Positions 11,732 through 21,080 are shown, counted from the first letter of the stretch. The stretch is 64,000 nucleotides of DNA from Thermodesulfobacterium geofontis OPF15 (GCF_000215975.1 NC_015682.1:248001-312000); one strand, 5' to 3'. The notes: generated by a model from the sequence alone, not told the origin. Numbers and translations: made by a program.

Positions 11732-12637
11732 ATGGAATATCAAAGAACCTTAGCTGGAAAAGTAGTTTTAGAAGGTGAAGGCATTTTTTCTGGTAAAAAT
11801 ATAAGGGTAGAAATTGAACCAGCTGAGGAAAATGGAGGTATTAATTTTATAAGAGCAGATTTACCGGGAAAGCCTGTTATTCCATTAAAAATAGAAAATA
11901 TAATTGGGCTTGAGGGTGCAACTGCAATAACTGATGGAGAACATTTTATTTATTTAGTGGAACATCTCCTTTCTGCTCTTCATGGACTTCAAATAGATAA
12001 TGCGAATATTTATGTTTATGGAGAAGAAATACCCTTATTTGATGGTTCAGCATATCCTTGGGTAAGAAAAATTCAAGAAGTGGGATATCGATTTTTATTA
12101 ATCCCTAAAAGGAAATTTTATCTTCGTAAAAGTTTTCAGTATCAAAATGGAGTTTCTAAAATAAATTTCAAACCCTCTAATACTTTAAAAATTAAAGCCT
12201 TCATATCTTTTGAACATCCCCTTATAAGAGAACAAAGCTTAGAAATTGAGATAAATCCAAGGTCTTATATTAATGAAATTGCTTTTGCAAGAACCTTTGG
12301 TTTTAAAGATATACTTTTTGAAAGGAAAAATAAGGGCATAATAAAAGGAGGTAGTCTTTCTAATGCTATAATTTTAGATAAAGATAAAGTTCTTAATCCT
12401 GAAGGTTTGAGAACTGAAGATGAATTTGTAAGACACAAAATCCTTGATATCGTAGGAGATTTATTTGCTTTAGGATATCCTTTAGTAGCAGAAATTGAGG
12501 CAATCTATTCCAATCATAGATCTCATATAGAGGCTTTAAAAAGCCTTTATAAAGCTGGATTATTAGAAGAAATTGAAAGTAGAGCCCTTACTTTTTTGCT
12601 AATTTATAAAAAATTAAAAAAATACGAACAAACTTAA
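11732..12637 (+). CDS. lpxC: UDP-3-O-acyl-N-acetylglucosamine deacetylase
   Basis: LpxC performs the committed step of lipid A synthesis, a zinc-dependent deacetylation in the cytoplasm. The 301 residues contain the catalytic Glu77 with zinc ligand His78 (LVEHLLSALHG), zinc ligands His235 and Asp239 (HKILDIVGD) and the general acid His262, with the same spacing as Aquifex LpxC. A GGAG site precedes the start. The 146-base gap upstream presumably holds its promoter. It proves that the host has, or had, an LPS outer membrane. Its end overlaps that of the L,D-transpeptidase gene by 4 bases. Confidence 0.95.
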   Translation: MEYQRTLAGKVVLEGEGIFSGKNIRVEIEPAEENGGINFIRADLPGKPVIPLKIENIIGLEGATAITDGEHFIYLVEHLLSALHGLQIDNANIYVYGEEIPLFDGSAYPWVRKIQEVGYRFLLIPKRKFYLRKSFQYQNGVSKINFKPSNTLKIKAFISFEHPLIREQSLEIEINPRSYINEIAFARTFGFKDILFERKNKGIIKGGSLSNAIILDKDKVLNPEGLRTEDEFVRHKILDIVGDLFALGYPLVAEIEAIYSNHRSHIEALKSLYKAGLLEEIESRALTFLLIYKKLKKYEQT

Positions 12638-13536
12638 TCTTTAATTTCCCCTATTTTATGAATTAAACCGTCAGGATTTTTAAGAACCCTTTCTAAAATT
12701 TTTAAATTAATTTTATAACTTAAATTTTTTCTTTCTGTAAGTTTATCTAATTTTTGTATAATATAAGGTAGAGGATTTTTTATAAAATTTTCTATATCAG
12801 GATAAGCTTGCAAATATATACTTTTTCCTTCTATAGCAATTTTGTAAGGTTCATAAATGATTTTTACTAAAGTTCCTACAGGAACATTTTCAAACAAAAA
12901 TTTTATATCCTCTGGATAGAGACGAATACATCCATGGGTAGTTCTTCTACCAATGCTATATACTTTATTTGTGCCATGTATAGCATAAAGACCTTTTGAT
13001 AAGTAAAGTGCATAATCACCCATAGGATTTTCTGGTCCTGGAGGAACTACGTCAGGTAAAGTAGGGTCTTCAGCTTTTATAGAAGGAGGAGGATACCAAG
13101 TGGGTTTTTCTTTTTTATTAATTATAGTATATAATCCTAAAGGAGGTAAACTACCTTTAACACCAATTCCTATAGGAGCTACTAAAAACTCATTATTTTT
13201 GAAATAATATAGTCTCATTTCTGGAAGATTAATAAGAATAAAATTATTAGATAGATTTAAAAATTCCTCAGGAATTAAAACCTTTTTGGGTATAATAATT
13301 TTTTTTCCTTTGGGTGGTATCCAAGGATCTACCTTAGGATTAGCAAGGGTTATATGATAATATCCCACTTTAAATTGGACAGCTAAATCTACAAGTGTAT
13401 CATTTTCTTGAAGGGTATAAAATATATCTTCAAAATAGATAAATTTATTGGGGATTAATTTATTTACTTGGCAACTCCCTAAAGTAATATAAAATAAGAC
13501 GAATAAAAAGCTTATAAAAACCTTATGAGATTTCAT
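12634..13536 (-). CDS. L,D-transpeptidase lipoprotein with LysM domain
   Basis: It is a YkuD-family peptidoglycan cross-linking or modifying enzyme, 300 residues long. Residues 1-22 form a lipoprotein signal with lipobox LGSC (Cys22). A LysM peptidoglycan-binding repeat lies at about 37-83. The YkuD domain (about 97-235) has His187 and catalytic Cys203 in 'THGCIRL'. No alternative in-frame start exists that keeps the signal peptide, so its 5' end really does overlap the divergent CysK fusion gene by 12 bases. Confidence 0.9.
   Translation of the reverse strand: MKSHKVFISFLFVLFYITLGSCQVNKLIPNKFIYFEDIFYTLQENDTLVDLAVQFKVGYYHITLANPKVDPWIPPKGKKIIIPKKVLIPEEFLNLSNNFILINLPEMRLYYFKNNEFLVAPIGIGVKGSLPPLGLYTIINKKEKPTWYPPPSIKAEDPTLPDVVPPGPENPMGDYALYLSKGLYAIHGTNKVYSIGRRTTHGCIRLYPEDIKFLFENVPVGTLVKIIYEPYKIAIEGKSIYLQAYPDIENFIKNPLPYIIQKLDKLTERKNLSYKINLKILERVLKNPDGLIHKIGEIKD
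13468..13495 (+). promoter_or_regulatory. Candidate promoter of the CysK-CysRS fusion gene
   Basis: TTGGCA (13468-13473), a 16-base spacer and TAAAAT (13490-13495) give 5/6 matches in both boxes. The site lies inside the oppositely oriented L,D-transpeptidase gene, as it must because the two start codons overlap. Predicted transcription starts about 20 bases before the ATG at 13525. No Shine-Dalgarno site is visible. Confidence 0.45.
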
Positions 13537-15861
13537 AATATCTTACAAAAAATTGGTAACACTCCCATAATTAAACTAAGAAATATAAAAGTCAAGCCAT
13601 CTATAGAAATTTGGGGGAAGTTAGAAAGTCAAAATCCTGGAGGCTCTATAAAGGATAGACCAGCACTTTTTATGATAGAAGAAGCAGAAAAAAAGGGGCT
13701 TCTAACTAAAGATAAGATTGTAATTGAAGCTTCAAGCGGGAATACAGGAATAGGGCTTTCTTTAGTATGTGCAGTAAAAGGATATAAATGCATAATTGCT
13801 ATGCCAGAATCAGCTTCTATAGAAAGAAGGAAAATAATGCAAGCTTACGGGGCAGAAATTCTTTTAACTCCAGCAGAAAAAGGAACTGATGGAGCTATAG
13901 AGACTGTTTATGAAATTTGGAGAAATAATCCTGATAAATATTATTGTACTGATCAGTTTAATAATGATGCAAACTGGCTTAGTCATTATAAAACTACTGC
14001 TCCAGAAATTTTAAGAGACACAGAGGGTAAAGTTACTCATGTAGTTTGTGGTCTTGGGACAACAGGAACTGCTATGGGAATTGCAAGGTTTGTAAAAGAC
14101 AATAATCTACCTGTTAAAGTAATAGGGGTAGAGCCTAATCCCGGACATAAAATCCAAGGTTTAAAAAATATGAAAGAATCTTATCCACCAAGTATTTATA
14201 AAAAGAGCCTTCTTGAAAAGGTAATAAATATAGATGATGAAGAAGCATTTTATTGGGCAAGAAAATTAGCTAAGGAGGAAGGTATTTTTGTAGGTATGAG
14301 TTCAGGTGCAGCCCTAGCAGGTGCATTAAAATTAGCAGAAACCTTGGATGAGGGGTTAATTGTAGTTATTTTCCCTGATGGAGGAGAAAGATATCTTTCA
14401 ACACCACTTTGGAGCTTTGAAACAATAAGAAAAGAACTACCTAAGGAAGTAGATTTATTTCTTACCAATACCTTTTCAGGCAAAAGAGAAGCCTTCTACC
14501 CTTTAATTGATAAAGAAGTAAAAATCTATACTTGTGGTCCTACGCTAAATACAAGACCACATATAGGTCTTTATAGAAGACTTATTACTGTAGATATATT
14601 AAAAAGTTTCCTAAAACTGATGGGTTACAAAGTTATCCATGTAGTCAATTTAACAGACTTTGATGACAAAACCATTAATACTGCCTTAGAAAAAGATGTA
14701 GATTTAAGAGAACTTACCTCAAAGGTGGAACAAGAATTTTACGAAGATTTAGATTGGTTAAAAATTGAAAAAGCTGATTTTTATCCTAAGGTTAGCGAGC
14801 ATTTAGAAGATATGAAAAAACTTGCTATAAGTATTTTGGAAAAAGATAAAGCCTATGTGAAATATTCAAGTCTTTATTTTGATATTTCAAGATTTTCTGA
14901 ATATGGTAAACTTTCTAAAATTGATTTAAGTTTTCTTAAACCCGGTGCTACAATTGATCTTGAGGAATATGATAAAGAAGAACCCTTTGATTTTGCCCTT
15001 TTAAAAAGAGTCCAAATTTTAGAATTAAAAAGAGGATATTTTGTTGAAACCCCTTTTGGAAAAGTAAGACCCACTTGGCATATTCATTGTGCAAGCCTTG
15101 TTTTAAAATATCTTGGAGAAGAAATTGATATTTTTACTAGTGGAAACGATCTTATTTTCCCTCATCATGAAAATACAAGAGCTATTGCTAAGGCATTAAC
15201 TGGAAAAGAACTTGCAAAATATTGGGTTCATTCTGGTTTAGTTTTTTATAACGGAAAAAAAATTTCTTCTGAAAATAGAATTACTATAGAGGATATTAAA
15301 AATAAAGGATTTTCAGGGAGAGTTTTAAGATTTTACTTCTTAAGAACTCATTATAGGAATCGATTTAATTTTAGTTGGAAAGGATTAGAAGAAAGCTCTA
15401 AAATTTTAGAAAAAATTGATAGGTATATAGCCTATTTAGGGGCAACCCCTGAAAATGAAAAGATAGAAGATAAAGATAAGCTTTGGCAAATTTTAAAAGA
15501 TTTTGAAAATAATTGGAAAGAGGCATTAAAAGAAGATTTAAATACCCCTATAGTTATTTCTGAAATAATTTCCTTTTTTAAAAAAATTTATCCCTATTTA
15601 AAGCAAGGTCTACCTTTAGATTATAAAAAGGAAGTTCTAAAATCCCTTAAAAATCTCAATAAAATTTTAAAAATATTTAAGTTCCCCCAAGTAGTAGAAA
15701 AAAGGGATATATTGGAAAAAATTGAAATAAGAGAGAAGGCAAAAAAAGAAAAAAATTATGAATTAGCAGACAGAATTAGAGAAGAACTTGAAAAAGAAGG
15801 CTTTTTTATTTTTGATTTTTCTTTTGGTACAAGAGTTGTTTCTCTAAAAGAAGAATTATGA
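13525..15861 (+). CDS. Fusion: cysteine synthase + divergent cysteinyl-tRNA-synthetase-like enzyme
   Basis: One uninterrupted 778-residue frame joins two complete enzymes. Residues 1-300 are an O-acetylserine sulfhydrylase-type PLP enzyme: Lys43 in 'GGSIKDRP', SSGNTG at 70-75 and GLGTTGT at 176-182. Residues about 329-778 align end to end with CysRS, including 'YTCGPT' (Cys337), 'WHIHC' (Cys522), 'FPHHEN' (His547), 'LNTP' and the C-terminal helical domain with 'ADRIREEL'. Key positions differ: HIGH is HIGL (346-349), KMSKS is KISSE (579-583), the position of the fourth zinc ligand (E. coli Glu238) is Thr551, and E. coli His224 is Phe. It may be an odd CysRS fed by its own CysK, or a cysteine-activating paralogue. 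The frame overlaps the glycosylase gene by ATGA. Confidence 0.85.
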   Translation: MRFHNILQKIGNTPIIKLRNIKVKPSIEIWGKLESQNPGGSIKDRPALFMIEEAEKKGLLTKDKIVIEASSGNTGIGLSLVCAVKGYKCIIAMPESASIERRKIMQAYGAEILLTPAEKGTDGAIETVYEIWRNNPDKYYCTDQFNNDANWLSHYKTTAPEILRDTEGKVTHVVCGLGTTGTAMGIARFVKDNNLPVKVIGVEPNPGHKIQGLKNMKESYPPSIYKKSLLEKVINIDDEEAFYWARKLAKEEGIFVGMSSGAALAGALKLAETLDEGLIVVIFPDGGERYLSTPLWSFETIRKELPKEVDLFLTNTFSGKREAFYPLIDKEVKIYTCGPTLNTRPHIGLYRRLITVDILKSFLKLMGYKVIHVVNLTDFDDKTINTALEKDVDLRELTSKVEQEFYEDLDWLKIEKADFYPKVSEHLEDMKKLAISILEKDKAYVKYSSLYFDISRFSEYGKLSKIDLSFLKPGATIDLEEYDKEEPFDFALLKRVQILELKRGYFVETPFGKVRPTWHIHCASLVLKYLGEEIDIFTSGNDLIFPHHENTRAIAKALTGKELAKYWVHSGLVFYNGKKISSENRITIEDIKNKGFSGRVLRFYFLRTHYRNRFNFSWKGLEESSKILEKIDRYIAYLGATPENEKIEDKDKLWQILKDFENNWKEALKEDLNTPIVISEIISFFKKIYPYLKQGLPLDYKKEVLKSLKNLNKILKIFKFPQVVEKRDILEKIEIREKAKKEKNYELADRIREELEKEGFFIFDFSFGTRVVSLKEEL

Positions 15862-16514
15862 AAAATATTTCTCAGATTTTGTACGAAATTTACGAAAGCC
15901 TTTTTGCCCATTTTGGACCTCAAAATTGGTGGCCTGCAGATACACCTTTTGAAATATGTGTAGGAGCAATTCTTACCCAAAATGCAAGCTGGAAAAATGT
16001 GAAAATAGCTATAGATAATCTTAAAAAGAAAGATCTTTTAGACCCTTTTAAACTTTATAATATCCCCTTAGAATCCCTTTCTCAAATTATAAAACCTTCT
16101 GGATTTTATAATACTAAGGCAAAAAGGCTTAAAAATTTCGTTAAATTTTTAATAGAAAATTATCAAGGAGATCTAAATATTTTATTTTCAAAGGGGCTCA
16201 AAAAAGCAAGAGAAGAACTTTTAAATATAAAAGGATTAGGTAAAGAGACCGTAGATAGTATTCTTTTATATGCAGGAAATTTACCAATTTTTGTAGTTGA
16301 TGCCTATACCTATAGAATTTTACATCGTCATTCTCTTGTTCCTGAAGAAGCAACTTATGAAGAAATGCAGGCTTTATTTATGGAAAATCTTCCTCAAGAT
16401 CCTCAGCTTTTTAATGAATTTCATGCCCTTTTAGTTGCTTGTGGTAAAAATTTTTGTAAGAAAAAAGAACCTCTTTGCGAAACTTGCCCTTTAAAAACCA
16501 TTAAAATTCCTTAA
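15858..16514 (+). CDS. HhH-GPD DNA glycosylase, MagIII-like with Fe-S cysteines
   Basis: The 218 residues resemble Helicobacter 3-methyladenine glycosylase MagIII: 'WWPADTPFE' near 25, 'GAILTQNASW' (37-46), 'PSGFYNTKAKRL' (80-91), the helix-hairpin-helix 'IKGLGKETVDSILLYA' near 124-139 and the catalytic Asp148 in 'VVDAY'. The lyase lysine of endonuclease III is Glu130 here, so a monofunctional base-excision enzyme is expected. Unlike MagIII it keeps four C-terminal cysteines (195, 200, 207, 210), a likely [4Fe-4S] site with C-X4-C-X6-C-X2-C spacing. It is coupled by a 4-base overlap to the fusion gene. Confidence 0.8.
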   Translation: MKNISQILYEIYESLFAHFGPQNWWPADTPFEICVGAILTQNASWKNVKIAIDNLKKKDLLDPFKLYNIPLESLSQIIKPSGFYNTKAKRLKNFVKFLIENYQGDLNILFSKGLKKAREELLNIKGLGKETVDSILLYAGNLPIFVVDAYTYRILHRHSLVPEEATYEEMQALFMENLPQDPQLFNEFHALLVACGKNFCKKKEPLCETCPLKTIKIP

Positions 16515-17435: not shown

Positions 17436-17960
17436 ATGAGACAATTTAAAGGGTATATTCAAGTTTATACTGGAGAAGGAAAAGGAAAAACTACAGCAGC
17501 TATTGGATTAACTATTAGAGCTCTTGGAGCAAACTTAAAAGTTGCCTTTTTTCAGTTTTTTAAACCTGGAACCTCAAGCGAGGTAAAAATATTAAAAAAA
17601 TTTTCTCCTCAGCTTTATTATAAAAATTTTGGTAAAAGGGGTTTTGTAGAAAATAAAGTTGATTTAAAAACACAAAAACTCACCCTTAAGGGCTGGAAAG
17701 AAACAAAAGAATTAGTAAAATCAAAAAGCTATAATATATTGATTTTAGATGAAATTTCTTATGCTTTAAATTGGGAAATAATTGATTTAAAGGAATTTTT
17801 AGAATTTCTTAAAAATAAACCTAAAAATCTTGAAATCGTCATAACTGGAAGAAATGTTCCTGAAGAAATTTTAGAAATAGCAGATCTTGTAACCGAGATG
17901 AAAAAAATTAAGCACTATTACGATAAAGGGGTAAAATCAAGAAAAGGTATAGAGAAATGA
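17436..17960 (+). CDS. Cob(I)alamin adenosyltransferase (BtuR/CobO type)
   Basis: It transfers adenosyl from ATP to cob(I)alamin to make coenzyme B12. The 174 residues open with 'GYIQVYTGEGKGKTTAAIGL', whose P-loop is at 13-20, and keep 'ILDEISYAL' (Walker B) near 107. The length is typical of the BtuR/CobO family. It overlaps mqnC by 4 bases. The link to menaquinone synthesis is positional only, but B12-type radical SAM enzymes elsewhere in the window would need the cofactor. Confidence 0.9.
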   Translation: MRQFKGYIQVYTGEGKGKTTAAIGLTIRALGANLKVAFFQFFKPGTSSEVKILKKFSPQLYYKNFGKRGFVENKVDLKTQKLTLKGWKETKELVKSKSYNILILDEISYALNWEIIDLKEFLEFLKNKPKNLEIVITGRNVPEEILEIADLVTEMKKIKHYYDKGVKSRKGIEK

Positions 17961-19015
17961 AAGAAAAAATCATTAAGAAAATTTTAGAAGGGGAAAGAAT
18001 TAACGAAAAGGAGGCTTTGAAACTTTTTGATTTTAATTTATCTGAACTTGGATATTTAGCAAGATTGGTTAGATTTAGAATAAATCCTGAAAGAATAGTA
18101 ACTTATGTTGTAGATAGAAATATTAATTATACCAACATTTGTATTTCTGGTTGTAAATTTTGCGCCTACTATAAACCTCCGGGATCTTTAGAAGGTTATG
18201 TTTTAAGTTTTGAAGAGCTTGGTAAAAAAATAGAGGAAACTATAAATCTTGGAGGTTATCAAATTTTACTTCAAGGTGGTCTTCATCCAGAACTTCCTTT
18301 TTCTTTCTATGAAGAGATGTTAAGGTTTATTAAAAGTAATTTTCCTCAGATTCATTTGCATGCCTTTTCACCTCCAGAAATAATCCATTTTAGTAAAATT
18401 TCAGGTTTAACAGTAAAGGAGGTTTTAGAAAGATTAATAAAGGCGGGGCTTGATTCCATCCCAGGAGGAGGAGCTGAAATTCTTTCAGATAGAGTAAGAA
18501 AATTAATTTCTCCTAATAAGTGTTCTTCAGAAGAATGGTTAATGGTTATGGAAACTGCTCACAAACTTGGACTTAAAACTACAGCAACCATGATGTTTGG
18601 GCATATAGAAACCAAAGAAGAAATAATAGAACATCTATCTAAAATCAGAAATTTACAAGATAAAACTAAAGGTTTTACAGCTTTTATACCTTGGACTTTT
18701 CAACCAAAAAATACCCGTTTAAGTTATCTCATGAAAGTAGGATCTGCAGAATATTTGAGGGTGCTTGCTATTTCAAGGATCTTTCTTGATAATATAAGAA
18801 ATATTCAAGTTTCATGGGTAACCCAAGGACCTCACATAGCTCAATTAGCTTTAGAGTTTGGCGGAAATGATTTTGGAAGTACTATGATAGAAGAAAATGT
18901 AGTTGCAGCAGCTGGAGTGTCTCACAGACTAAGCGAAGAACAAATCAGAAATTATATAGAAAGCGCAGGTTATATTCCTAAGAGAAGGAAAATGGACTAT
19001 ACCCTTTTAGAATAA
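17957..19015 (+). CDS. mqnC: Cyclic dehypoxanthine futalosine synthase
   Basis: MqnC is the radical SAM enzyme that cyclises dehypoxanthine futalosine in the futalosine menaquinone pathway. The 352 residues hold the [4Fe-4S] motif C62-X3-C66-X2-C69 in 'NICISGCKFCAYY', then 'GLDSIPGGGAEIL', 'MFGHIET' and 'FTAFIPWTFQP', all typical of MqnC, not MqnE. It is followed at once by the deaminase, mqnA and the methyltransferase. MqnE, MqnB and MqnD are not in the window. Confidence 0.93.
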   Translation: MKEKIIKKILEGERINEKEALKLFDFNLSELGYLARLVRFRINPERIVTYVVDRNINYTNICISGCKFCAYYKPPGSLEGYVLSFEELGKKIEETINLGGYQILLQGGLHPELPFSFYEEMLRFIKSNFPQIHLHAFSPPEIIHFSKISGLTVKEVLERLIKAGLDSIPGGGAEILSDRVRKLISPNKCSSEEWLMVMETAHKLGLKTTATMMFGHIETKEEIIEHLSKIRNLQDKTKGFTAFIPWTFQPKNTRLSYLMKVGSAEYLRVLAISRIFLDNIRNIQVSWVTQGPHIAQLALEFGGNDFGSTMIEENVVAAAGVSHRLSEEQIRNYIESAGYIPKRRKMDYTLLE

Positions 19016-19021
19016 ATTTTT

Positions 19022-20251
19022 ATGGGAGAACTAAAACTTCAATCTTATCATCATTATCTTATTAGAGCAAAATGGGTTTTCCCAATACTTTCTCAACCAA
19101 TCTTAGATGGAGCAGTAGAGATCAAAAATAAAAAGATAGTAAATGTAGGAAAATTTAAAGAAATCTCTAAGGAAGCAGTATTAGCAAAAATTATTGACTT
19201 TGGAGAAATGATTATTCTTCCTGCTTTAGTTAATGCTCATACCCATTTAGAATTATCAGCTCTAAGATCTAAAATTCCACCTCCCTCAGGAGACTTTATT
19301 GCTTGGGTAAGAAATGTAGTTAAATTAAGAGAAAATCTAAATTTAGTTGAGATTAAAGAATCTGCTAAAGCAGTTCTTTATCATTTTTGGAAAGAAGGGA
19401 TTAGTATAATTGGTGATGTTGGAAATACAGCTCTAACACTTGATCTTCTTTGTAATTCAGCTTTTTATGGATATTTTTTTCATGAAGTCATTAGTTTTAA
19501 AGGGGGTTATAATCTTAGAGAAATTCAAGTAAAAGCACCTTCTTCAAATTTTAAAATTACCTATTCAGCCCATGCCCCTTACAGTGTATCTCCCCTTTTA
19601 CTTCAGGCTATTAAGTCTTATAACAAAAAAAGAAAAAAACTTTTTTGCATTCACTGTGCAGAATCAATTGAGGAGATTAAATTTTTAAAAAACGGAGAAG
19701 GACCTCTTTTAGAATTTTTAAAAGAAAGAGGACAATGGGACGAAAGTTTTGTTCCTCCAGGAATTAGCCCTATAAAATACCTCAATAATTTAAAACTTTT
19801 AGATGAAGATACATTACTTGTCCATGTAATTCATATAGATGATGAGGACTTAAAAATACTTAAAAATACAAAGCCTAAAATCTGCATTTGTCTTAGAAGT
19901 AATTTATTTATTGGAGTGGGTATCCCAAAATTGAAGGAACTTCTTTCAGCTGGACTCGATGTTTGTATAGGAACAGATAGTTTAGCAAGTAATGATCAGA
20001 TTTCTATTTGGGAAGAAATAAAAACCATCTACACTTATTATCCAAATATTTCTCCAGAAGAAATTTTGAAAATGGCTACTTTTACAGGAGCAAAAGTTTT
20101 GGGATATGATAAAATGGGAGCCATACTTGCTGGATATGATCCTAATATACTTGTTTTAGAAATAAAAGATCCTTTGAAGGAAAAATCAGAAGAAGTAATT
20201 AGAAGTTTAATAAATGCTGAAAGGGAGATAAAATTTAGGTTCTATGTATAA
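19022..20251 (+). CDS. Aminofutalosine deaminase-like amidohydrolase
   Basis: This 409-residue amidohydrolase-superfamily protein has metal ligands His73 and His75 in 'NAHTHLELS', 'HCAES' near 220 and 'GTDSLASN' near 319. These are the marks of the MTA/SAH deaminase-like group that includes 6-amino-6-deoxyfutalosine deaminase. Its place between mqnC and mqnA makes that reaction (aminofutalosine to futalosine) by far the likeliest. The function rests on family plus context; related enzymes deaminate other adenosine derivatives. Confidence 0.82.
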   Translation: MGELKLQSYHHYLIRAKWVFPILSQPILDGAVEIKNKKIVNVGKFKEISKEAVLAKIIDFGEMIILPALVNAHTHLELSALRSKIPPPSGDFIAWVRNVVKLRENLNLVEIKESAKAVLYHFWKEGISIIGDVGNTALTLDLLCNSAFYGYFFHEVISFKGGYNLREIQVKAPSSNFKITYSAHAPYSVSPLLLQAIKSYNKKRKKLFCIHCAESIEEIKFLKNGEGPLLEFLKERGQWDESFVPPGISPIKYLNNLKLLDEDTLLVHVIHIDDEDLKILKNTKPKICICLRSNLFIGVGIPKLKELLSAGLDVCIGTDSLASNDQISIWEEIKTIYTYYPNISPEEILKMATFTGAKVLGYDKMGAILAGYDPNILVLEIKDPLKEKSEEVIRSLINAEREIKFRFYV

Positions 20252-21080
20252 ACTAAAATTGGGAAGTCCTCTTTATATAAATACACTCCCCTTATTATTT
20301 TATTTTCCTCAAAATAATCCTTATTTTGAGATAATACTTGAAGTTCCTAAAAAACTTAATCAAAGTTTAGCTAAAGGTGAGATTCATGGAAGTTTAAGTT
20401 CAAGTGTATTTTATGCCAAAAACTTTCGCAAATATTTAATACTTCCTGATATATCTATTAGTGCAGTAGGAAAAGTAAAAAGTGTAATACTTTATCATAA
20501 AGTTCCTTTAGAAAAACTTGATAATAAAAAAATAGGTATTACTCCCGAAACAGAAAGTTCTTTTAATTTACTAAGGATACTATTAGAGGAATTTATCGGT
20601 ATAAAACCTAAATATATAGAACTTTATAAAAATTGGAGAACTTTGACAGAAGAAGAAAAAAAGGAACTTTCAGGATATTTGGCTATAGGAGATGAAGCTT
20701 TAATTCTTCAATTTAACAATAGAAATAAATCTGCACTAATTACTGATCTTGCTGAACTTTGGCTAAAATATACTCATCTACCTTTTGTATTTGCTCTTTT
20801 CATTGTAAGAAAAGATATAGCTAAAAAATATAAAAATGAATTAAAAGAATTTTGTAATAATCTTTATTATGCAAGGGCACAAGCCTTTTCTAATTTAAGG
20901 GAAATTGTAAAAAAAAGCCATTTAAATCTTCCAAAGGGATTTTTATTTAATTATCTAACTCACTTAGAATATGATTTTTCAGGGTTAAAACAAAGAGCCT
21001 TTATAACCTTTTGTGAGTATTTATTAAAAATGGGATTGATAAAAGAATTACCAAAACTTAGATTTTTGGAAATCTTATAA
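20244..21080 (+). CDS. mqnA: Chorismate dehydratase
   Basis: MqnA converts chorismate to 3-enolpyruvyl-benzoate, the first step of the futalosine pathway. The 278 residues follow the periplasmic-binding-protein-like fold of the family: 'GSPLYINTLPLLFYF' at the start, 'GSLSSSVFYAKN' near 50, 'GDEALIL' near 149 and 'DLAELWLKYTHLPFVFALF' near 167-185. It overlaps the deaminase by 8 bases. Confidence 0.9.
   Translation: MYKLKLGSPLYINTLPLLFYFPQNNPYFEIILEVPKKLNQSLAKGEIHGSLSSSVFYAKNFRKYLILPDISISAVGKVKSVILYHKVPLEKLDNKKIGITPETESSFNLLRILLEEFIGIKPKYIELYKNWRTLTEEEKKELSGYLAIGDEALILQFNNRNKSALITDLAELWLKYTHLPFVFALFIVRKDIAKKYKNELKEFCNNLYYARAQAFSNLREIVKKSHLNLPKGFLFNYLTHLEYDFSGLKQRAFITFCEYLLKMGLIKELPKLRFLEIL

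Follow-up and report, generated by a model that had tools for sequence, protein, structure and literature searches.

The 64,000-nucleotide stretch of DNA analysed here (the window; GCF_000215975.1 NC_015682.1:248001-312000) belongs to the genome of Thermodesulfobacterium geofontis OPF15, a single contig of 1,634,377 bases, and carries on its plus strand a gene (13525..15861) whose 778-aa product joins a cysteine synthase to a putative pseudo-synthetase resembling cysteinyl-tRNA synthetase (CysRS). The open reading frame runs from an ATG at 13525 to a stop at 15861, a total of 778 codons with no internal stop, and matched the Pfam profiles PALP at residues 7–285 (E 1.3e-76) and tRNA-synt_1e at residues 326–624 (E 5.4e-80). 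Frame and profiles thus confirmed the initial annotation, which had described a complete cysteine synthase (Lys43, SSGNTG) and a full-length CysRS-like half in one frame. An AlphaFold2 model of the fusion showed two confident domains (mean predicted local distance difference test score, pLDDT, of 86) on either side of a linker (residues 299–310; 14419..14454, plus strand) that was modelled with low confidence and varies in length among fusions; pLDDT fell below 50 at residues 292–307. Given this linker and a predicted template modelling score of 0.60, the model does not define the mutual placement of the two halves.

The synthase half (residues 1–298; 13525..14418, plus strand) has a CysM-type fold with the pyridoxal phosphate (PLP) lysine at Lys43, the loop S70-S71-G72-N73-T74-G75 and a GLKNM motif at residues 212–216. 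It scored 371 bits against the NCBIfam cysteine synthase model TIGR01136 (cut-off 344) and stayed under the cut-offs of both NCBIfam equivalog models, for CysK and for CysM. In structure comparisons its predicted model matched CysM enzymes, namely 2bhs (Z 42.0) and Mycobacterium tuberculosis CysM (5i7r; Z 40.7). The latter, an O-phosphoserine sulfhydrylase (3DKI, 5I7R), shares the fold and about 39–40% aa identity with this half but is a standalone enzyme. Across 103 fusions K43, S71–G75, K214 and N215 were conserved at 100%, Lys214 being a candidate phosphate-binding residue and presumably the counterpart of an Arg in M. tuberculosis CysM. Since the PLP lysine and the SSGNTG loop are invariant, this half looks fully active as judged from its sequence, which suggests a working PLP-dependent cysteine synthase. 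It is also the only cysteine-synthase-type PALP protein in the genome, the other PALP proteins resembling, in size and score, two TrpB and one threonine synthase. Searches of the same genome gave only weak hexapeptide matches for CysE, no MetX and nothing beyond weak background for PF01053, the family of PLP enzymes of cysteine and methionine metabolism that includes those of transsulfuration. With all three undetected, methionine and homocysteine synthesis in this organism also appears unusual. As neither CysE nor MetX was found, the acceptor substrate of the synthase half may be O-phosphoserine rather than O-acetylserine, which is plausible if weakly supported.

The CysRS-like half (residues 311–771; 14455..15837, plus strand) passed the NCBIfam cysS model TIGR00435 narrowly (354.6 bits, cut-off 340), and its predicted model aligned over 439 residues between positions 310 and 774 with the tRNA-Cys-bound CysRS of 1u0b_B (Z 41.3, rmsd 3.4). 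Alignment to the sequence of 1LI5, which provided the E. coli CysRS numbering used here, revealed that HIGH is replaced by HIGL (H346-I-G-L349; 14560..14571), KMSKS by KISSE (K579-I-S-S-E583; 15259..15273), with a 2-residue deletion in the lineage of the window, and H224-G-G-G by F537-T538-S539-G540 (15133..15144; all plus strand). Three of the four zinc ligands are kept, namely Cys337 (E. coli Cys28; 14533..14535), Cys522 (Cys209; 15088..15090) and His547 (His234), the last in the plus-strand motif H547-H-E-N-T551 (15163..15177), where Thr551 occupies the position of the fourth ligand, Glu238. Compared with canonical CysRS (E. coli CysS, 1LI5/1U0B), this half shares full-length homology, the tRNA-binding domain and most zinc ligands, but has altered HIGH, KMSKS and GGG motifs, has lost one zinc ligand in the window lineage and is not the sole CysRS of its genome. 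A separate canonical CysRS with intact HIGH, KMSKS and zinc site is encoded elsewhere on the contig (G000:C1:718726-720168; 553 bits to TIGR00435), which makes the fused half a paralogue; of the two readings first offered for the gene, a channelled CysRS or a paralogue that ligates or senses cysteine, the test proposed with them, a search for a second canonical cysS, favours the paralogue. Nearly every fusion genome checked likewise has a separate canonical CysRS.

How far these substitutions characterize the family was assessed in an alignment of 92 fusions, with the members of family f42 (G079, G246, G307, G326, G415) left out; in these five of the roughly 155 fusions found in the phylum the CysRS half is strongly diverged (90–142 bits to TIGR00435), and their genomes carry a normal CysRS beside the diverged fusion, the one in G079 being split over two frames. 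The second Lys of KMSKS was retained in 1% of fusions and the second His of HIGH in 5%, while Gly225 and Gly226 were retained in 1% and 10%, respectively, with Thr/Ser replacements in the H-G-G-G site in 72/92 and 76/92 fusions. Zinc ligand Glu238 and His224, in contrast, were kept in 58% and 73%, so that the changes to Thr551 and Phe537 belong to the lineage of the window, and in some fusions the zinc site has been destroyed (TTHE, TAHV, TSHV). All the residues named in the initial annotation, from HIGL, KISSE, Thr551 and Phe537 to the remaining Cys337, Cys522, His547 and C-terminal domain, were recovered in the E. coli alignment. Its emphasis on the zinc and cysteine site, however, holds for the window lineage, whereas loss of the second KMSKS Lys and of the second HIGH His extends across the family.

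These data bear on the main alternative, a second active CysRS: cysteine made by the synthase half would pass to a rebuilt site and be charged there onto tRNA-Cys, the fusion either backing up the canonical enzyme or being a channelled form of it. In favour of this, the fold of CysRS is retained as a whole, tRNA-binding domain included, the TIGR00435 score lies above the cut-off, the first HIGH His, Gly39 and the first KMSKS Lys persist in 72%, 80% and 82% of fusions, and, beside the three zinc ligands of the window protein, the cysteine-pocket residues Gly29, Thr68 and Trp205 are found in 100%, 84% and 97%. Some fusions even keep KMSRS together with all zinc ligands, and loss of the second KMSKS Lys alone does not prove inactivity, as eukaryotic TyrRS (KMSSS) and TrpRS (KMSAS) are active. 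However, the second Lys is gone in 99% and the second His in 95% of members, several fusions, L103–L106 among them, have neither catalytic motif nor an intact zinc site, and a canonical CysRS is present, so that a second charging enzyme seems unlikely.

The altered catalytic domain also contains residues that are invariant in the fusions at positions where canonical enzymes differ, including R352, which follows immediately after the HIGH region, and R495, K502, G504, Y482 and T476. This suggests that the old active site was rebuilt under selection for a new role rather than left to decay. New chemistry would be one such role, with the rebuilt site either holding a different substrate, such as O-phosphoserine or the 3' end of a tRNA, to be converted by the PLP half, or ligating cysteine to an acceptor as the mycothiol cysteine ligase MshC does. 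R352, R495, K502 and G504 in the old catalytic domain and the failure to find CysE would fit this proposal, and tRNA-bound cysteine synthesis has a precedent in SepRS/SepCysS (PMC5424206). It nevertheless appears very improbable, given that enzymes of the CysK type work on free amino acids, whose carboxylates they bind with a loop that the fusion has kept intact, and that the adenylation motifs are eroded. The MshC-like variant, raised in the initial annotation, is not favoured as the main reading: MshC is likewise a CysRS paralogue with a non-translational role but lacks the anticodon-binding domain that the fusion has, aligns with the fusion over the catalytic part only, and its model TIGR03447, which has a cut-off of 485, gave 148 bits.

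The C-terminal anticodon-binding domain (15697..15837, plus strand) presents a different picture. Its residues R736, K740, Y745, D749, R752 and D764 correspond to E. coli R423, R427, W432, D436, R439 and D451, of which Arg423, Arg427, Trp432 and Asp436 contact G34 of tRNA-Cys in 1U0B (PMC12684709). In the 92 fusions R423, D436 and R439 were retained at 100%, D451 at 99% and R427 at 85%, with Lys in the rest. Mean retention was 0.97 in the anticodon set and 0.67 over the canonical invariants as a whole (P = 0.016 in a random-draw test on 88 invariants), an enrichment that is supportive, not overwhelming, in a domain that is otherwise the fastest-evolving part of the fusion. The loss of the adenylation motifs with retention of the residues for tRNA-Cys anticodon recognition is a stronger family-wide signal than the zinc site and was missed in the initial annotation. 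It also bears on the proposal of a free-cysteine sensor acting without tRNA, in which cysteine bound in the old amino-acid site would inhibit the synthase half. Zinc ligands and cysteine pocket are fairly well retained (means of 0.85 and 0.88), and HisZ, of which the sensor would be a strict analogue, provides a precedent: this paralogue of HisRS has no adenylation activity and regulates HisG (PMC9437257). Such a sensor would, however, have to work in members whose zinc site is destroyed, and it leaves the anticodon residues, among the best kept of all, unexplained; we consider it quite unlikely.

Orthologous fusions without stops were recovered first in about 40 full-length copies and then, in a wider survey, in about 155 of the 395 genomes sampled from the phylum, at full length and with 42–86% identity; many sulfate reducers and related bacteria thus carry the gene. 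At least 11 further copies occur in named records, among them Desulfocapsa, Desulfobulbus rimicarensis, Desulfoluna butyratoxydans and Desulfobacula, and the fusion in a Caldimicrobium sp. record is 64% identical to that in the window. This recurrence excludes a frameshift or assembly error joining two genes. One copy (G054:C1:2736757-2739044) is interrupted near residue 594, its two parts lying in overlapping frames, through either a frameshift or a sequencing error. Outside the phylum the fusion was found in 0/148 genomes of a phylum labelled Nitrospirota and 2/149 of one labelled Acidobacteria. In a tree that included canonical CysRS from this phylum and from others, the CysRS halves formed one clade (103/103, support 1.0), which held when the last two fusions were added (105/105, support 1.0). 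This single clade argues against a chance association and points to one fusion event that is old and has become widespread. Pairwise dN/dS (the ratio of nonsynonymous to synonymous substitution rates) was mostly 0.03–0.1 in both halves, which are under strong purifying selection; together with the new invariant residues, these values rule out a decaying pseudo-domain.

The genes around the fusion are housekeeping genes that change between lineages. In the window it lies head to head with an L,D-transpeptidase-like gene (12634-13536, minus strand; LysM and YkuD-like by eye), the two start regions overlapping by 12 bases, an arrangement present in 28 loci. Downstream, the start of an endonuclease III-like gene (15858-16514, plus strand) overlaps the fusion stop by 4 bases, and this neighbour is conserved in 22 loci, most of which belong to the same family. 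Both neighbours flank the fusion in Thermodesulfobacteriaceae, with thymidylate kinase and SurE-like genes adjoining the fusion elsewhere. Further along the window, at 17957-21080 (plus strand), are genes resembling those for menaquinone synthesis by the futalosine pathway (radical SAM MqnC-like, amidohydrolase and MqnA/MqnD-like), assigned by eye. No functional operon was evident around the fusion in the compared loci, as might be expected if the CysRS half were a passive passenger that merely stabilizes or localizes the synthase. Deep conservation, the specific anticodon residues and the low dN/dS speak against a passenger, and it would be surprising if this were the explanation.

The reading that we put forward, and to which we give an about even chance of being correct, is that the fusion is a cysteine synthase equipped with a pseudo-synthetase, which derives from CysRS, binds tRNA-Cys and ties the production of cysteine to the charging of tRNA-Cys. 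The C-terminal paralogue, its adenylation signatures gone, would still dock on the anticodon of tRNA-Cys; a tRNA-Cys(GCA) gene was located in the genome by a sequence-pattern search. The pseudo-synthetase half would then sense how much tRNA-Cys is present or how far it is charged and signal allosterically to the synthase half, with uncharged tRNA-Cys acting, for instance, as an activator or Cys-tRNA-Cys as a brake. Feedback control would in this way have moved to the cysteine-forming step from CysE, on which it lies in other bacteria. As CysE is the usual feedback-controlled step in cysteine synthesis, attaching a regulator to the synthase would be a sensible arrangement in genomes that lack CysE. 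CysE was missing from 76/155 fusion genomes compared with 56/240 genomes without the fusion (Fisher P 2e-7, relatedness ignored).

Several observations weigh against such a tRNA-gated synthase. The association with CysE loss ignores phylogeny, and CysE is present in half of the fusion genomes. The anticodon-domain residues may have been retained for structural reasons, and the P value of their enrichment is modest. Some members, L056 and L053 among them, keep KMSRS, all four zinc ligands and H-L-G-L/N, and because of these motifs they may still charge tRNA, so that the family may be mixed. In G036, a 98%-complete draft, a fusion (G036:C36:34227-36536) but no separate CysRS was detected; sister genomes have a separate CysRS and the missing gene is probably a gap, as otherwise the fusion there must charge tRNA-Cys. 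Finally, the suggested use of O-phosphoserine is weakened by the occurrence of GLK-type motifs in standalone synthases.

The fusion fits the concept of an aminoacyl-tRNA synthetase-derived domain with lost catalytic motifs placed on another enzyme, for which HisZ and GCN2 provide functional analogies, no homology to HisZ being claimed. The closest analogues appear to be HisZ in principle and GCN2 in the reading of tRNA. Like HisZ–HisG, the fusion attaches a synthetase paralogue without aminoacylation signatures to an enzyme making the cognate amino acid, but HisZ is a class II protein that forms a subunit of its own and mediates the inhibition exerted by free His, whereas the fused half is class I and keeps its anticodon-binding residues. 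In GCN2 a fused degenerate HisRS-like domain is proposed to read tRNA charging; there it drives a kinase and general control, while the partner in the fusion is the cognate amino-acid synthase. The SepRS–SepCysS–SepCysE transsulfursome also couples cysteine synthesis physically to tRNA-Cys, but its enzymes are unrelated to the fusion and make cysteine on the tRNA. Another noncanonical extra CysRS from the same phylum, CysRS* of Desulfobacterales, charges SelC* and is coupled to SelC*/SelB*, but differs from the fusion in having no anticodon domain (PMC9437257). A third, shorter CysRS homologue in each of two genomes (G170:C61:164356-165615 and G396:C1:2100534-2101781; profile positions 1-409 and 1-404, 300-303 bits, stop read through) might represent this CysRS*. 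No description of a cysteine synthase–CysRS fusion was found in the literature searched, a search whose scope excluded most subscription journals.

In T. geofontis, the fusion is thus the only candidate cysteine synthase in a genome without detected CysE, and it carries a predicted tRNA-binding module. Profile searches would label many of these fusions simply as CysRS or as cysteine synthase, which would mislead metabolic models. The family may also offer a natural series in which a synthetase loses catalysis while keeping tRNA recognition. If gating by tRNA-Cys is correct, a single polypeptide would match amino-acid synthesis to the demand of translation, with transcriptional control playing no part. 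More broadly, and tentatively, as we hold this to be possible but somewhat less than evenly balanced, the fusions may represent a class of amino-acid biosynthetic enzymes on which the charging of the cognate tRNA acts directly as a gate, at the level of the protein and by way of a fused pseudo-synthetase, in place of feedback control through CysE in many Desulfobacterota, or else a tRNA-dependent cysteine route unrelated to SepRS/SepCysS.

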